Shown here in pieces: positions 16,108 to 40,813 of a DNA stretch of 52,733 bases (the first letter of the stretch is position 1; each line of letters starts with the position of its first letter). Location of the stretch: positions 1-52,733 of the forward strand of contig JAQBPN010000043.1 of NCBI GenBank assembly GCA_028287505.1. The letters run 5' to 3'. Origin of the DNA: Fibrobacterota bacterium (GTDB lineage Bacteria; Fibrobacterota; Fibrobacteria; UBA11236). Position numbers and translations under genes: made by a program. The notes under the pieces are model-generated. The model searched no databases. It saw nothing but the letters and a program-made list of their open reading frames with translations, and was not told the DNA's origin.

Positions 16108-16797
16108 TTGGCAAACAAGTCTTCCTCCCCTTCCCCTTCCCGGGGCGGGGAAGAGCCCGTCATCGCGAAGGGCCCTTTCCTTATTTTCCTCTTCATGATG
16201 CCGGCATTCATATTCATCATCGCGTTGATGCTGGTGACCATGCAATACAAGCAGTTGCATGCATTCGTTTCCGACCGGCCTATGCAGATGGCGACCGTGC
16301 CGGTATCCCCCGAGGCCCAGATCAAAGTCCGGGCCGACGTGATGGCCTTCTTCGCCGATACCTCCCGTGACACGCTTTCCATGTCCACGGAGGATATCAA
16401 CCATCTGACCCGCACCAGCAAGGCGCTGGCCGATTTGCGCCTGGACTATCACTTGTCCCTGGAAGACTCCCTGGTGGTGGCCCGTAACAGTCTGCCCGTC
16501 AGCACGCTCCATGGCACCTTGGGCACCTTGGCCAAGCTTACGCGCATCAAGGGATATCTCAATTCGGAGATGAAGGGCTATCCCGAATTGAAGGACGGCA
16601 AGATCACGATGGTGCCGGTGGGAGCCGTCATGAACGGGATTCCCGCTCCGGTATCGGTGCTGGATCAGAAAGGGCCCCTCGATTTCCGCGAGTGGGTCTC
16701 GGACAAGGATTCTTACGATCAGGCCCTGGCGCGCCTCGCCGACGTAAAGGTGCAGGGCGGGCGGTTGTTGTTGATTAAGAAGAAGATCGCTTCATAG
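16108..16797 (+). CDS. Unknown membrane-anchored protein at the end of the cox operon
   Basis: A 229-residue protein with one membrane helix (about residues 24-45) and a soluble domain of about 180 residues outside it. I do not recognise the family. The soluble part has no cysteines or obvious metal motif and looks helical up to residue 150, then mixed. It starts at TTG 16108, preceded by AAAGGAA at a suitable distance, 36 bp after coxD, and is followed directly by a terminator inside repeat copy 2; it is therefore the last gene of the respiratory operon. A role in oxidase assembly is possible but rests only on position. Confidence 0.7.
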   Translation: MANKSSSPSPSRGGEEPVIAKGPFLIFLFMMPAFIFIIALMLVTMQYKQLHAFVSDRPMQMATVPVSPEAQIKVRADVMAFFADTSRDTLSMSTEDINHLTRTSKALADLRLDYHLSLEDSLVVARNSLPVSTLHGTLGTLAKLTRIKGYLNSEMKGYPELKDGKITMVPVGAVMNGIPAPVSVLDQKGPLDFREWVSDKDSYDQALARLADVKVQGGRLLLIKKKIAS

Positions 16798-16867
16798 TGC
16801 GGGCGGAATATTTGGATGCTGTTGTAGTGCTGTAGTGTGCATTTCGTCGGGCGTCGGGCGTCGGGCG

Positions 16868-16915
16868 AAAAACCAGGAGTCCTCTGAATAAGGGTTCCTG
16901 GTTTTTTCTTTCCTC
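16868..16915. terminator. Bidirectional terminator hairpin in copy 2
   Basis: Perfect 11-bp stem AAAAACCAGGA (16868-16878) with TCCTGGTTTTT (16896-16906), followed by a T-rich tract on the + strand and an A-run on the left that becomes a T-run on the - strand. It would end both the cox operon and the antiporter transcript. Confidence 0.75.
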
Positions 16916-16941
16916 CTCTTCTCTTTTCTTTACGCCCGACG

Positions 16942-17005
16942 CCCGACGCCGAGGCGCCACGTCGAAGTGGATAAAATGCGGCTCGTACGCGCCGGTCGCC
17001 CGACG
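16942..17005. repeat. Nested cassette with conserved 18-bp ends (copy A)
   Basis: CCCGACGCCGAGGCGCCA (16942-16959), then 28 nt of unique sequence (16960-16987), then CGCGCCGGTCGCCCGACG (16988-17005). The same two end blocks, in reverse orientation and around an unrelated 29-nt centre, occur at 39678-39742. GGCGC in one end can pair with GCGCC in the other, enclosing the variable centre. Confidence 0.75.
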
Positions 17006-17013
17006 AGACGCTT

Positions 17014-18504
17014 CTACAGCGCTCTCGGAATCAAATCCGATTCCCGATTCCCTGGGGATCTTCCCCGTCCCACTTTCAGCATCGACAGCAACGGGCCCGT
17101 CATGGCCGTGGTCGCCAGCGCGACCAGCACCATCATGGTGAAAATCCTGGGAGACAGGATCCCCAGGTCCAGGCCCACGTTCAGGACAATCAACTCCATC
17201 AATCCGCGCGTGTTCATCAGGGCCCCCAAAGCGAATGCGTTGCGCCAGGAGGCGCCGGTGAAGCGCGCCGCCAGGCTGACCCCTCCCAGCTTTCCCGCCA
17301 CCGCCAAGGCCATCAGCGCGGCGAATACGGCCCAGTCGCCCCCTTGATCCATTATGTCCACGCGGGCGCGCAATCCCGTCGAGGCGAAAAATACCGGCAG
17401 GAGGAACAGGGATGCCGAATATTCCAGGCGTTCCCGGAGGAAGGTGCGGAAGGCTTTGGCCGGAGGCATGATCGTCCCCGCCAGGAATGCCCCGAAAAGC
17501 GAGTGGATGCCGATGGCCTCCGTGGCCACGGAACTGAGGAACACGCAAATCAAGACCAGGGAAGCCAGGCCGCGACCGGGTCCCTGTCCTGCAGGGTCTC
17601 CCTGCGGATCGAGGCCCCTGGCCATCCAGCGGGCGGCCAGGGGCCGCATCAGGAACACCATGGCCAAGGTGAAAGCCAGGGCCATGGCCGCGATGGGCAA
17701 GGCTGAAAAAGGCGACTGCGCGCGCGCGACCGCGATGACCAGGGCCAATAGCGTCCAGGCGGTGACATCGTCCACGGCGGCGCTGGCCATGGCCGTGGTC
17801 CCCAGGCTGGTCGAGGAAAGGCCGCGTTCCTCGATAATGCGGGCCAGCACGGGAAAGGCGGTAATGCTCATGGCGATGCCCATGAACAAGGCGAAGGCCG
17901 GAAACTTCACGTCCGCGGGCGCATAATCCCGGAACAGCAGGAGGGCCGCAATCATTCCCAGAAGGAAGGGCATGACTATGCCGGCATGGCTTACGAACAC
18001 GGCCACCTTGGCGTGTTTGCGCAGGGAGCCCAAATCGATCTCCATGCCCACGGAAAACATGAAAAGAATGATTCCCACCTGGCTGAGCAGGTTCAGGTTG
18101 GCCAGGCTGGCGGGAGGAAAGAGAAACCCTTCCACCGCGGGGAGGAAATGCCCCAGCAAGGAGGGACCCAGGATGATACCGGCGGCCATCTCACCGATGA
18201 CGGACGGCTGGCCCAAACGCCGGGACAGTTTGCCGCACAGCAGGGCGGCGGCAACCACCGCGGCCAATTGGCACAAGAGGATGGGGAAGGGGCGTTTGAA
18301 CGTGTCCCGCAGGTCGGCGGATATCCCGGATGGATGGGTCTTGGACGGGATCGGGTTGATTGCGGCTGTTTCCGGTTCCCGCGTTGGGGAGGAAGGCGTC
18401 TCCGCCGATTTCCTCGCTATCGGGTTGGCCAGAATCGCCCAGGCGGCCGCTGCGAAAAGGGCCAGGAAGAGAAGGTAGGCCAGGGTTCCTTTTGCATTCG
18501 CCAT
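17014..18504 (-). CDS. CPA2 family cation:proton antiporter
   Basis: A 496-residue membrane protein. Residue 1-25 is a hydrophobic segment followed by a Pro/Ser-rich stretch (about 30-65), then a Na+/H+ exchanger domain with about 12 helices (75-480). GQPSVIGEMAAGIILGPSLLG, LFMFSVGMEIDL, SITAFPVLARIIEE and ASAAVDDVTAWTLLALV are standard CPA2 (KefB/NapA-like) motifs, including the Asp-Asp pair for ion exchange. No C-terminal TrkA-N domain is present, so it is closer to plain exchangers than to Kef potassium efflux systems. The transported ion (Na+ or K+) cannot be read from sequence. It converges with the cox operon across repeat copy 2. Confidence 0.88.
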   Translation of the reverse strand: MANAKGTLAYLLFLALFAAAAWAILANPIARKSAETPSSPTREPETAAINPIPSKTHPSGISADLRDTFKRPFPILLCQLAAVVAAALLCGKLSRRLGQPSVIGEMAAGIILGPSLLGHFLPAVEGFLFPPASLANLNLLSQVGIILFMFSVGMEIDLGSLRKHAKVAVFVSHAGIVMPFLLGMIAALLLFRDYAPADVKFPAFALFMGIAMSITAFPVLARIIEERGLSSTSLGTTAMASAAVDDVTAWTLLALVIAVARAQSPFSALPIAAMALAFTLAMVFLMRPLAARWMARGLDPQGDPAGQGPGRGLASLVLICVFLSSVATEAIGIHSLFGAFLAGTIMPPAKAFRTFLRERLEYSASLFLLPVFFASTGLRARVDIMDQGGDWAVFAALMALAVAGKLGGVSLAARFTGASWRNAFALGALMNTRGLMELIVLNVGLDLGILSPRIFTMMVLVALATTAMTGPLLSMLKVGRGRSPGNRESDLIPRAL

Positions 18505-34672: not shown

Positions 34673-34803
34673 CGTCGGGCGTTCGGCGTCGGGCGTAAAA
34701 GAAAAACCGGGGATGAACTCCGGTTTTTTCTTTTTACGACCTATGGGTGCGGAAAAAGTTTTACGCCCGACGCCGTCGGCTCCAAGGGAGCCGCACGCCC
34801 GAC
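34673..34803. repeat. GTCGGGC-arm intergenic element, copy 3
   Basis: Left arm: CGTCGGG (34673-34679), a degenerate CGTTCGG, and CGTCGGG (34687-34693). Right arm: CGCCCGACG from 34764, broken by a small hairpin CGGCTCC/GGAGCCG (34777-34793), then CGCCCGAC ending at 34803. From 34720 to 34769 it is identical to copy 4 except for one T. It lies between the convergent ptsN-like and glycosyltransferase genes and overlaps the end of the latter. Confidence 0.85.
34695..34737. terminator. Bidirectional terminator hairpin in copy 3
   Basis: Inner stem AAAAACCGG (34702-34710) with CCGGTTTTT (34720-34728), extended by GTAAAAG and CTTTTTAC outside it. T-rich on both strands. Confidence 0.75.
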
Positions 34804-35948
34804 CTCGTTTCCTCAGCAATCTCATCCATAAGCTCCGCCAGCCTGGCCAATCCGTGCTTCCAGCTGAAATGCGACCGCACCCATTCCGGGCCGGCTTCGC
34901 CCATGGCGAGCAGTTGATCGGGAGACGCCAACAAGGCGGCCAATTTCTCGCGCAGGTCGTCCCGGTCCCCGGCGCGGAACAGGACGCCCGTTCTGCCTTC
35001 CAGGACGGCTTCCGGAATGCCGCCCGTCCGGGCCGCCAGCACCGGCAGACCCAGGCTTTGGGCTTCCAATAAGGTCAGGCCCAATCCTTCCACATGGTTG
35101 TTTTCCACCGGAGGCAGGCTGGGGAGGATGAACAGGGAGGCGTCCAGGAGCAGACGGATCTTTTCCGCTTCGTCCACCGGTGGGCGGAAACGGATCCTGT
35201 CGCCCAGGCCGGATGCGCGCACTCGCTCCTTCAGATTGGCTTCTTCTTCGCCGGCGCCCACGATGTCCAGGGTCCAGGGAAGGCCGGCCAATTGCCCGAT
35301 CGCGTCCAGGAGCAGGGCCGTGCCTTTGCGCGGCACCAGGCGGTGCATGCACAGGAGGCGCGGACCCTGGGTAACCTGGGTGGTACGATGGCCGGCCGAC
35401 GCCGCCGGCCCGCCTTCCAATGGATTTCCATAAGGGATCACTTCCAGGCGGCGGCATTTGATTCCCAGTTGCCCCACGATTTCCGCGGTGTGCCGCGAGC
35501 CGGCCACCACGGCGTCGGCCCGGGAAAGGACCGCTTTCTTGAACAGGCGTACCACGAAGCGTTCGGGATCGATCAGTTCCGCCCCGTGGACCAGGACCAG
35601 GTAATGGGTGCCCGTTCCCAAGCGGCTCAGGAGCATGGACGGAATGGCCGTGGTCCATTGCATGTGCAGCAGGAAATCCGTCTTGAACCGGAAGCGGTAC
35701 CAGGGAATGCTCCAGAGGCTCCACCAGAAGGCGCGCCAGCGCGTCCGGCCGTTTCGCCAGGCCAGGCCCACCCCTGCCGCCGGCGGAGGCAGGGCCTGGA
35801 GGGCATGATCGCTTCCGGCCAGGACATGCGTGAGCCGGCCGCCGGGAAAATCCCGGGCGATGCGATAGGAGTATGTCTGGAGACCTCCCACGTCCGGGGG
35901 ATAGTCGGTGGTGATCAACAGGGCGCGGACACCGCGGGCATTTGGCAT
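34761..35948 (-). CDS. GT4-family glycosyltransferase
   Basis: A 395-residue GT-B enzyme. The N-terminal domain begins RALLITTDYPPDVGGLQTYSYRIAR; the C-terminal domain has EVIPYGNP, a donor-binding region and LEAQSLGLPVLAARTGGIPEAVLEGRTGVLF, the E-x7-E motif of GT4 enzymes. It transfers a sugar from an activated donor, probably to a lipid or polysaccharide; substrates cannot be read. The natural domain ends near ELMDEIAEE; the last dozen or so residues (SGVRLPWSRRRRA) and the stop codon are encoded by repeat copy 3. There is no linked polysaccharide cluster. Confidence 0.88.
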   Translation of the reverse strand: MPNARGVRALLITTDYPPDVGGLQTYSYRIARDFPGGRLTHVLAGSDHALQALPPPAAGVGLAWRNGRTRWRAFWWSLWSIPWYRFRFKTDFLLHMQWTTAIPSMLLSRLGTGTHYLVLVHGAELIDPERFVVRLFKKAVLSRADAVVAGSRHTAEIVGQLGIKCRRLEVIPYGNPLEGGPAASAGHRTTQVTQGPRLLCMHRLVPRKGTALLLDAIGQLAGLPWTLDIVGAGEEEANLKERVRASGLGDRIRFRPPVDEAEKIRLLLDASLFILPSLPPVENNHVEGLGLTLLEAQSLGLPVLAARTGGIPEAVLEGRTGVLFRAGDRDDLREKLAALLASPDQLLAMGEAGPEWVRSHFSWKHGLARLAELMDEIAEETRSGVRLPWSRRRRA

Positions 35949-37057: not shown

Positions 37058-37085
37058 TTGAGGGGTGGTCATTGTTATATATATT
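37058..37085 (+). promoter_or_regulatory. Possible promoter of the topoisomerase gene
   Basis: TTGAGG (37058-37063) and TATATT (37080-37085) are 16 bp apart, 38 bp before the TTG start. The -10 box matches five of six consensus bases, the -35 four of six. Confidence 0.35.
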
Positions 37086-37123
37086 GGAACCGACCTCATC
37101 TTGACCAGGAAGGATGGCTGAAT

Positions 37124-39652
37124 TTGGCCGTCGAAGCCACCAAAACCCTCATTATCGCCGAAAAACCCAGTGTTGCAGGCGACATCGTAAAAGCCCTGCC
37201 GGAAAAGTTTGAAAAGTACGATGCCTATTACGAGAGCCCCGGTTTCGTGGTCTCCTTCGCCATCGGTCACCTGGTCAGCATCGCCAATCCCAAGGACATG
37301 GATGAACGTCTCAAGGCATGGACCTTGGACAACCTGCCCATCATCCCGGAAAAATTCGCCATCACGCCTCTGCCCAAAACCAAGGCGCAGTTGTCCACCC
37401 TCGCCAAGCTGCTCCGCCGCAAGGATATCAAGGAAGTCATCAACGCCTGCGACGCCGGTCGGGAAGGCGAACTGATTTTCCGCTATATCCTCCAGTACGT
37501 TTCCGAAACCAAACCGGTCAAGGCCGGAATCCGCCGCCTGTGGCTCCAGAGCATGACCAAAACCGCCATCGAGGAGGGTTTCAAACACCTTCGCACGGAC
37601 GGGGACATGCAGAACCTGGCCCAAGCCGCCATGTGCCGATCCGAAGCCGACTGGCTGGTGGGCATCAACGGTTCGCGCGCCCTCACGGGTTACAAATCCC
37701 AATGGGGAGGGTTCTTCCTGACTCCCTGCGGCCGCGTGCAGACCCCGACCCTTTCCATGATCGTCCGCCGCGAATGGGAGCGGGATGCTTTCATCCCCAA
37801 GGATTACTGGGAGGTCCATGGGGATTTCGGCATCGTGGGAAGCAAGGCCGAACACGGCGAGTACCAGGGCCGCTGGTTCGATCACGAGTTTAAGAAGAGC
37901 GATGAAAAGGACGACACCAAGTCGGAACGAATCTGGGAGGAAGCCAAGGCCCAGGCCATTCTGGCGAAGTGCAAGGGCAAGCCGGCGGAAGTGACCGACA
38001 CCCAGAAGCCTTCAACGCAAGGTGCGCCGTCCCTGTACGATCTCACCAGTCTGCAGCGCGAGGCCAATGCCCGCTTCGGCTTCTCGGCCAAGAATACCCT
38101 GGGGCTGGCCCAGGCCTTGTACGAACGCCATAAGGTGCTGACCTATCCGAGAACGGACAGCCGCTACCTGCCGAACGATTACGTGGCCGTGGCCAAGGAA
38201 CTGATGCAGAATCTGCAGAAGTCCGAATACGGCCGGTTCGCCACCCAGGCCCTGGAAAAGGGCTACGTGCGGATGGACAAGCGCATTTTCGATGAGTCCA
38301 AGGTTTCCGACCATCATGCCATCATCCCCACCAATGTGATGCCGGGGGAGCTCTCGGAACCCGAGCGCAAAATCTACCAGGCCGTGGTGCAGCGTTTCCT
38401 GGCCGTGTTCTTCCCGCCCGCGCGATTCCTCAACACTTCGCGCATCACCATCGTCGAAGGCGAGCATTTCAAAACGGACGGCAAGGTGCTGGAAGAACCG
38501 GGATGGAAGGCCATCTACGGCATCGACAAGAAAGAAGAAGAGCTGCTGCCCAACCTCAAGGCCGGCTCCAAGTATTTCGCCAAGGACGTGACCCTGCGCC
38601 AGGACGCGACCCGCCCCCCGCCGCGCCTCAACGAATCCACCCTGCTCTCCTTCATGGAAAGCGCCGGCAAGTACGTCGAGGACGAGGACCTGGCGGAGGC
38701 CATGAAGGAACGCGGTCTGGGGACGCCGGCCACGCGCGCCGCCGTCATCGAAGGCCTGCTGTACGACAAGTACATCGTCCGCGAAGGCAAAGAACTGGTG
38801 CCCACCGCCAAGGGAGCCGACCTGATGCGCCTGCTCTCCGCCATCGGCATCGAAGAACTGGTCTCGCCGGAATTGACGGGTGGTTGGGAATACAAGTTGA
38901 ACCGCATCGAACGCGGCCTGTATACCCGGCCCGAGTTCATGAAGGAAATCGTGGATTTCTCCCGCACCATCGTCGCGAAGATCAAAGGCTTCGACGAGGA
39001 CAAGCTCAAGCAGGAAGCGCCTTTCAAGAGCCCCATCGACGGGCAGAAGATGTTCGAAACCCTGACCCGCTACGAGTCCGAGGACGGGACCCTGCTCATC
39101 CGCAAGGTGCTCGGAGGGCGCCAGATGACCGAGCCCGAGGTCATCGAGCTCCTGGAAAAGCGCCAGATCGGTCCGTTGCAAGGCTTCCGCAGCAAGATGG
39201 GGAAGCCTTTCACGGCGGTCCTCAAGATCAACGACAAGAACAAGGTGGAGTTCGTTTTCGACGACACCGCCTCGGGTCCGGACGGCCAGCCGCTGGATCT
39301 CGCCAAGGAAGAACCCATCGGAATCTCTCCCGTGGACGACACCAAGGTATATGAAACCCTGACGGGCTACGTATCGGAAAGCGCCCTGGCCGGGGATGCC
39401 AAGAAGGGGCTCAAGATCAACAAGATGATCCTGGGCAAAACCCTGGATCGCGACGTCATCAAGCGCCTGCTTTCCCTGGAACGCACGGATCTGATCAAGG
39501 GGTTCCAATCCTCCAAGACCCGGCGCTTCTTCGATGCCTATCTGAAGCTGAACAAAGAAGGCAAGATTTCCTTCGAGTTCCCGCCGCGGGAGTTCAAGGG
39601 ACGGGGGAAGAAGAAGGCGGTTGAAGCAGATGCAGCGGCGCCGGAGGCTTAG
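37124..39652 (+). CDS. topB: DNA topoisomerase III (type IA)
   Basis: An 842-residue type IA topoisomerase. The Toprim domain begins TLIIAEKPSVAGDI and includes NACDAGREGELIFRYI; the catalytic Tyr341 is in LTYPRTDSRYL; KVSDHHAIIPT and GLGTPATRA also match TopB. It passes single strands to decatenate or unwind DNA. The end (from about 660) has four-times repeated units of the form 'GxxMFETLTRYESEDG...IRKVLGGRxMTxxEVIELL', the small topoisomerase C-terminal repeats, instead of zinc fingers, then a Lys-rich tail. TTG 37124 is preferred: GGAAGGA stands 9 nt before it; an upstream TTG at 37058 adds residues unlike the family. Confidence 0.92.
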   Translation: MAVEATKTLIIAEKPSVAGDIVKALPEKFEKYDAYYESPGFVVSFAIGHLVSIANPKDMDERLKAWTLDNLPIIPEKFAITPLPKTKAQLSTLAKLLRRKDIKEVINACDAGREGELIFRYILQYVSETKPVKAGIRRLWLQSMTKTAIEEGFKHLRTDGDMQNLAQAAMCRSEADWLVGINGSRALTGYKSQWGGFFLTPCGRVQTPTLSMIVRREWERDAFIPKDYWEVHGDFGIVGSKAEHGEYQGRWFDHEFKKSDEKDDTKSERIWEEAKAQAILAKCKGKPAEVTDTQKPSTQGAPSLYDLTSLQREANARFGFSAKNTLGLAQALYERHKVLTYPRTDSRYLPNDYVAVAKELMQNLQKSEYGRFATQALEKGYVRMDKRIFDESKVSDHHAIIPTNVMPGELSEPERKIYQAVVQRFLAVFFPPARFLNTSRITIVEGEHFKTDGKVLEEPGWKAIYGIDKKEEELLPNLKAGSKYFAKDVTLRQDATRPPPRLNESTLLSFMESAGKYVEDEDLAEAMKERGLGTPATRAAVIEGLLYDKYIVREGKELVPTAKGADLMRLLSAIGIEELVSPELTGGWEYKLNRIERGLYTRPEFMKEIVDFSRTIVAKIKGFDEDKLKQEAPFKSPIDGQKMFETLTRYESEDGTLLIRKVLGGRQMTEPEVIELLEKRQIGPLQGFRSKMGKPFTAVLKINDKNKVEFVFDDTASGPDGQPLDLAKEEPIGISPVDDTKVYETLTGYVSESALAGDAKKGLKINKMILGKTLDRDVIKRLLSLERTDLIKGFQSSKTRRFFDAYLKLNKEGKISFEFPPREFKGRGKKKAVEADAAAPEA

Positions 39653-39677
39653 GAGCTTTTAGCGGCGTTTCGTCGGG

Positions 39678-39742
39678 CGTCGGGCGACCGGCGCGCCAGA
39701 TCAAACATTTGATAAGCAATTCCTTGGCGCCTCGGCGTCGGG
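39678..39742. repeat. Nested cassette with conserved 18-bp ends (copy B)
   Basis: Reverse-complement ends of the cassette at 16942-17005: CGTCGGGCGACCGGCGCG (39678-39695) and TGGCGCCTCGGCGTCGGG (39725-39742). The 29-nt centre (39696-39724) is unrelated to that of the other copy and includes ATCAAACATTTGAT, a short palindrome. Confidence 0.75.
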
Positions 39743-39752
39743 TGAAAAGACA

Positions 39753-39787
39753 AAAAACCGGAGATGGACTCTCCGGTTTTTCTTTTT
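39753..39787. terminator. Bidirectional terminator hairpin in copy 4
   Basis: Perfect 11-bp stem AAAAACCGGAG (39753-39763) with CTCCGGTTTTT (39771-39781) and a 7-nt loop, followed by CTTTTT. It should end both topB and the methyltransferase operon. Confidence 0.8.
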
Positions 39788-39901
39788 ACGACCTATGGGT
39801 GCGGAAAAAGTTTTACGCCCGTCGCCCGACGCCCGACGAAACGCATACTACAACTGCCGCTGCTTCAATCATAGCTCCCCGCCCAGTCCCGCAACTCTTC
39901 T

Positions 39902-40813
39902 TCATATCGCCGTGAACTCACTGATAAAATACCCGCCCGTCTTATCGCTGGGGTCTTTCGTCTGGTGATACACGTCCAGGATCACCTGGGACCGGAAGAA
40001 CTTGTTGGTCACATATCGGAAGAATGCCTGACACCACATCTCCTTGACGGATTCTTCCAGAGCGCCTTCCACGAAGAGGGAGCGGATCTGGGTGAGCTTG
40101 CTCAGTTCGTCCCGGTGGGCGTTGGCGTAATCCACCTTGTAACAGGCGCCGCTTTTTTTCACCAGGTGCCGCAGGTTCCGGCTGATGACGCGATCGGTCA
40201 TCAGGCCGTCGTACATTTCCTTGGGATTGTTGACGGCCACTTCGTCTTCCGGATCCATTTCCCTCAGGCGGGCCAATACGGTGCAGACGTTCACGTCTTC
40301 GCGCTTCTTGTACCCGTGCTTGTCGTAATAGTCCTGATCGCCCGGGGCGGGGGTCAGGTTGGGGAATACGAATATCACCGCGTCCGCCTTGTTGGCGGGC
40401 AGGGAGAAGTTGGGAAGCGAGGTCTGCACCAGGCGGATGCGCGGCCCCTTGGCATCGAAGCAGCGCTTGGCGTCCACGGGTCCGGATTCATGCCCCGATT
40501 TCGCGAGGCGCATGCTGGCGCGTTCCAGCATCTTGCGCGATCCGTCCAGGGCCACGATGCGGGCTTCCGGGAAACGGTCCGCCAAGGCGGCCAGGAAAGG
40601 GCCGCTGCCGCAGGCGTAATCCACCAGCCATTTGGGCTTGGGTTTGCCGCGCCCTTTGAGCTGCGCGTGGACGAATTCCGCGACCGCGGCGTAGGCTTTG
40701 CGGTGGGCGCCGTTGGAGGCTTGGCCCTCCCACCAGTCCCCCACGGCGGTGTCGTAGGATTTGTGGCCTTTCAGAAAGGCTTTTTCGAAGTCGATTTTCT
40801 TGTGGTCGGCCAT
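39902..40813 (-). CDS. Class I SAM-dependent methyltransferase
   Basis: A 303-residue protein with the SAM-binding motif I VDYACGSGPFLAAL (about 63-76), the acidic end of strand 2 in IVALDGSRKMLERA, and motif ADAVIFVFPNLTP where strand 4 is expected. The C-terminal 130 residues, including VNNPKEMYDGLMTDRVISRNLRHL, have no family I can name. The substrate is unknown. It is the last gene of a five-gene operon after the rluD-type gene (1 bp gap), so an RNA target is possible but unproven. Confidence 0.8.
   Translation of the reverse strand: MADHKKIDFEKAFLKGHKSYDTAVGDWWEGQASNGAHRKAYAAVAEFVHAQLKGRGKPKPKWLVDYACGSGPFLAALADRFPEARIVALDGSRKMLERASMRLAKSGHESGPVDAKRCFDAKGPRIRLVQTSLPNFSLPANKADAVIFVFPNLTPAPGDQDYYDKHGYKKREDVNVCTVLARLREMDPEDEVAVNNPKEMYDGLMTDRVISRNLRHLVKKSGACYKVDYANAHRDELSKLTQIRSLFVEGALEESVKEMWCQAFFRYVTNKFFRSQVILDVYHQTKDPSDKTGGYFISEFTAI

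Follow-up and report, generated by a model that had tools for sequence, protein, structure and literature searches.

The two repeats at 16942-17005 (plus strand) and 39678-39742 (minus strand) of the window, by which we mean the whole 52,733-nt stretch analyzed (contig C118 of G000, the 6.07-Mb draft genome of an uncultured Fibrobacterota bacterium), are copies of one cassette, type A, taken here with its heptad borders. This cassette probably represents a side hairpin that fills one of four slots in the arm of a lineage-specific, BIME-like 3′-end/terminator element and from which a putative binding loop protrudes. The preliminary description had reported identical 18-bp ends around centers of 28 and 29 nt, located inside opposite arms of a repeat element, and in these respects it was accurate, including the exact coordinates: the first copy lies in the right arm of heptad element 1 and the second in the left arm of heptad element 2. 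It had also called the two centers unrelated. They are not; the centers at 16960-16987 (plus strand) and 39696-39724 (minus strand) are both degenerate copies of a common core.

Anatomy and position of the heptad element

The element that houses the cassette consists of inverted arms, CG(TCGGGCG)4, around a terminator-like hairpin with runs of A and T. Arms were parsed over 853 kb of G000 plus the fetched loci and coded as strings of H (heptad), c (cassette), and V (the variant heptad CCCGTCG); most have four units (HHHH 20, HcHH 15, HHcH 13, and HHVH 8), the rest being shorter or variant. A cassette replaces one of the four heptads of its arm, there is at most one cassette per parsed arm, and a cassette and V never share an arm in G000, with the proviso that our parser opens and closes arms at plain heptads and end-slot cassettes of types other than A could escape it. 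The slot can also hold a short hairpin (e.g., CCGTCGGCGCCAAGGGCGCCGCACG) or a core of type C (CCTAGGCGCGAAG...GCCGTACG).

Four elements are present in the window. Element 1 (16845-17005) has a left arm of three heptads, a terminator-like hairpin, and a right arm of the form H-H-cassette-H. Element 2 (39671-39838) has its H-H-cassette-H arm on the left, followed by a bidirectional intrinsic-terminator-like hairpin (39752-39782), a spacer module, and a right arm that includes a variant heptad. The third element (34673-34804) carries a short hairpin cassette, CCGTCGGCTCCAAGGGAGCCGCACG, in its right arm, and the fourth (15-129) has two HHHH arms without a cassette. Whole elements fold far better than their shuffles, with the arms paired (z = -6.5 and -9.9). 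A simple terminator scan returned a match at element 2 and none at element 1, whose hairpin is imperfect and has a longer loop.

Heptad elements sit 3′ of genes, in convergent or tandem gaps, as REP and REPIN sequences do. Based on gene orientations from our own codon-based gene caller, the 27 elements with at least four heptads that could be placed between called genes in the 853 kb of G000 comprise 14 in convergent, 12 in tandem, and one in divergent gaps, against 79, 461, and 75 for all gaps, a convergent excess with p = 6e-7. Both elements of the window that carry type A lie in convergent gaps: element 1 is read into by a gene at 16108-16797 (plus strand) and, from the other side, by a gene for an antiporter-like membrane protein (17014-18504, minus strand), and element 2 by a topoisomerase III-like gene (37058-39652, plus strand) and a methyltransferase-like gene (39902-40813, minus strand), all names being given from sequence character. 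Weak conservation extends about 60 nt outside the arms, as far as the stop codon of the incoming gene, and the distance from these stop codons to the arms is concentrated at 55-64 nt. Degenerate blocks, AAACGC..TCAAATCC..TTCCCGATC..CTCTTC, can be discerned in these outer 60 nt, between arm and stop codon.

In tandem settings, 23 of 29 long cassettes (at least 36 nt, orthologs counted once) are in the arm transcribed before the terminator (p = 0.002, six exceptions), whereas short cassettes have no such preference (7:11, that is, 7/18 before the terminator). The tally was made by hand and includes one element (C35:199188) whose neighbor was called differently in another count. The preference was noticed post hoc, at 23:3 before orthologs were collapsed, and became 23:6 after this step and the addition of a second, less selected sample from G005, and we regard it as a tendency and a lead.

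A paired stem around a degenerate core

The end blocks of the cassette recur in G000 far beyond chance. The genome contains 11 exact copies of the 18-bp left end and 18 of the right end, plus three right ends with a single mismatch. These 21 right ends define the 21 cassettes of G000, and every one of them is paired with a left end at a distance of 28-31 nt. The near-constant length of the center that had been proposed from the window's pair of copies therefore holds, most centers being 30 nt. Two copies (L038 and L040) have a left end that is interrupted by a small hairpin, GGACCAAGGGTCC. A heptad-free search pattern found no type A copy outside heptad arms and none in the end slots of arms.

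Aligned, the 21 centers yield an AT-rich consensus, AAGCnAATGtctnTnAAatGtTnnnctc, with the common letters AAGCnAATG...TnAA..G. Their mean pairwise identity is 0.53, compared to 0.26 for shuffled letters, and when each of the 21 is compared with a profile of the remaining twenty, it scores above 2000 of its own shuffles (z 3.7-5.9). For the two window centers the leave-one-out values are z = 4.6 and 4.8, with none of 2000 shuffles as good in either case. Their relatedness had been missed by eye since two sequences at 48% identity, which is the value for this pair (0.48), are hard to relate. That the centers in G000 are degenerate versions of one sequence is the very outcome on which the simple idea of a cassette with a replaceable center had been staked, and in that form the idea fails.

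Columns of the core differ greatly in their constraint, some being saturated and others 95% fixed, and this pattern argues that parts of it are under selection. Copies from G002 also show the fixed letters. Inner pairing of the core was considered and rejected, as type A showed neither covariation nor excess folding on either strand (in the folding test part of the stem rim had been trimmed off). A long core in G005 (L064, L067, L069, L073, and L075) is unlike the unpaired type A core in this regard, since it contains a hairpin of its own, GGYGCGGAGCRCC, in which a compensatory change is seen. In the type A consensus AATG and AAATG form a direct repeat 11 bp apart, a spacing known from the sites of some dimeric regulators.

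The ends, by contrast with the core, can pair with each other. GGCGC opposite GCGCC is extended by CGAC opposite GTCG with small bulges, and compensatory changes are found in L043 (GTCGC/GCGAC) and in L044 and L045 (GGTGC/GCACC). The compensated variation is limited to two stem pairs in three copies, and in L029 one stem pair is broken. These changes lend support to the earlier suggestions that the ends pair and that the cassette is a structural spacer, and the cassette is predicted to form a side hairpin inside the larger element.

We infer that the element most likely serves one or two genes as their 3′-end module. Their transcript would fold into a long stem, the terminator would end transcription, and the cassette would protrude from the transcript as a stem, kept by selection, with a loop of about 30 nt. 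As this loop has a few fixed letters and lacks inner pairing, it would likely act as a binding site for a protein or an RNA.

Slot occupants in related genomes and competing explanations

Exact paired heptads number 283 in G000, 143 in G005, and nine in G002, and there are none in G001, G003, G004, or 55 further relatives of the class. Element matches recorded as Fibrobacteria or Fibrobacteres bacteria (L108-L110) proved to be loci L092, L084, and L080 from G002 and G005. Hits in Planctomycetota and Bradyrhizobium (L107 and L111) are without a surrounding heptad element and look like chance.

At locus 1 the convergent gene pair is kept in G002, G003, and G004 with little or no gap and without the element, so that the element was either gained in G000 or lost in the relatives. 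Orthologous arms were compared at locus 2 and six further loci. At locus 2, G005 has an element in the same convergent gap, and in the same arm the slot that holds type A in G000 is filled by a short hairpin. Elsewhere, both species have a type A core and one an extra hairpin (L086/L038); the arm is kept and the core differs (L089/L003 and L095/L046); a short hairpin (L106) stands opposite type A (L025), with the other arm of the same pair having a long cassette in G005 (HHc) and the variant heptad in G000 (HHVH); an HHHH arm in G005 is matched by an HcHH-type cassette arm in G000 (L077/L023); and a G002 copy has a type A-like core in degenerate arms (L104/L017). These differing occupants at orthologous slots indicate that the slot is retained even as different units come to fill it, and replacement at the level of the slot is real. 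The proposal of a replaceable core is thus to be modified, not discarded: it does not apply within G000, where the centers are related, and it stands in a wider form, in which sister species have another cassette or a plain heptad at the orthologous slot. The rim is nearly identical at 21 places, while the middle has drifted or been swapped between species.

In this picture, whole elements are gained or lost between species, and cassettes change by substitution of one unit. Because different occupants are found at one slot, we suspect that exchange proceeds via the repeated heptads and end blocks; these are nearly identical from copy to copy and would probably serve as sites of recombination or template switching. 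A more ambitious reading is a two-level mobile system, in which heptad elements spread via the 3′ ends of genes and a dedicated slot exchanges small hairpin cassettes between copies, the long ones being favored in the first-transcribed arm as RNA regulatory loops; as a whole we consider this doubtful.

The arms might instead act at the DNA level, as a cruciform or a site bound by protein (nucleoid protein, gyrase, or IHF-like), with the AT-rich core as the binding site. It would suit this explanation that the core is AT-rich within GC-rich surroundings and has fixed letters, and that AATG and AAATG are 11 bp apart. We think it unlikely, however, since the position behind genes, the scarcity of elements in divergent gaps, and the preference of long cassettes for one arm better fit a role in RNA, and the core is not matched to a known protein site.

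Mobility was weighed at two scales. For the whole element the model would be a REPIN/REP-type sequence that a tyrosine (Y1, RAYT) transposase mobilizes in the form of single-stranded DNA, with the cassette lying within the recognized hairpin. Paired inverted arms 3′ of genes, presence or absence between species, and a bulged cassette hairpin would be expected of such an element, but the heptad unit itself is not palindromic, and the Y1_Tnp domain (PF01797) is absent from the carriers G000, G002, and G005 and present only in the element-free G001. Mobility by a Y1 transposase is therefore not supported, and we judge this explanation very unlikely. For the cassette, the corresponding model is a minimal element, either mobile or exchanged site-specifically, with heptads as its insertion sites. 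It would account for the exact swap of one heptad for a cassette at orthologous arms and for differing occupants of one slot, including CCCGTCG in G000 where G005 has a cassette. Against it, type A is confined to heptad arms, no recombinase was identified, and the recent, identical cores expected of fresh copies are missing, the highest identity between any two cores being 0.8. Searches of phage, plasmid, and viral-contig sequences also produced no cassette match and hence no sign of such an origin. We found no evidence for the site-specific recombination raised earlier, and insertion of this kind seems quite improbable. Neutral decay, in which gene conversion with neighboring heptads homogenizes the ends and the core is a drifting relic, would explain near-identical ends around cores that are about half identical, but it is highly improbable given core columns that range from saturated to 95% fixed and the return of the same letters in G002.

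Relation to known repeat families

An Rfam search of the window gave no family match above the gathering score, and a tRNA search found none. Our literature search (heptad strings and Fibrobacterota intergenic repeats) yielded no description of such a repeat in the phylum. BIME, REP, and REPIN sequences are mosaics of short palindromic units in inverted pairs with structured spacers, are located behind genes, and have a presumed RNA role (PMC3733652, PMC3116915, PMC8266576), and CGTC-tagged REPs occur without a dedicated transposase (PMC3733652). The heptad element is similar to the former in its inverted pairs, structured spacers, mosaic make-up, convergent and tandem gaps, and presumed RNA role, and to the latter in lacking a dedicated transposase. 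It departs from REP and REPIN in having a non-palindromic heptad, four per arm, a terminator in the spacer, and a fixed cassette slot. As in BIMEs, its parts (heptads, cassette types, and spacer modules) occur in varying combinations, but it is not built from REP units; a GTAG- or CGTC-tagged palindromic unit was not seen, TCGGGCG being non-palindromic and pairing between arms. Since its unit is not a REP, we place the element as BIME-like, outside the REP family.

Heptanucleotide tandem repeats (STRR) of cyanobacteria likewise have seven-base tandem units between genes; inverted pairs, a fixed number of units, and a cassette set the heptad element apart from them. With MITEs it shares inverted ends, presence or absence (at locus 1), and a lack of coding capacity, and it differs in the terminator inside it and in that neither a transposase nor a target-site duplication is established, the borders at locus 1 being coarse. 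The cassette alone is reminiscent of integron attC sites, whose conserved ends fold into a bulged hairpin with a variable tip as its own do, although no GTTRRRY/RYYYAAC boxes were apparent by eye and there are no gene cassettes. Mosaic palindromic repeats are common and are known from other bacteria; element and cassette appear to be a new variety of them, one that follows set rules. The rules can be counted (four units per arm, one slot, one cassette), copies are numerous, and the element is present in some sister species and missing from others, so that gain, loss, and exchange of parts could be tracked here and RNA roles tested.

Some G000 contigs start inside elements (the window at position 15; C4:1), leading us to suspect that the elements break assembly. 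The spacers themselves contain further repeats. A 28-nt module, TTTTTCCGCACCCATAGGTCGTAAAAAG (minus strand), is identical at 34730-34757 and 39782-39809 and is found with changes in further G000 elements, making it a second nested repeat. A third, larger and GC-rich hairpin module similar to GGGCGGCTGGGG...CGCTGCCGCTTCCCAGC occupies spacers at C39:99876, C35:59031, C35:103944, and C128:35472 of G000.
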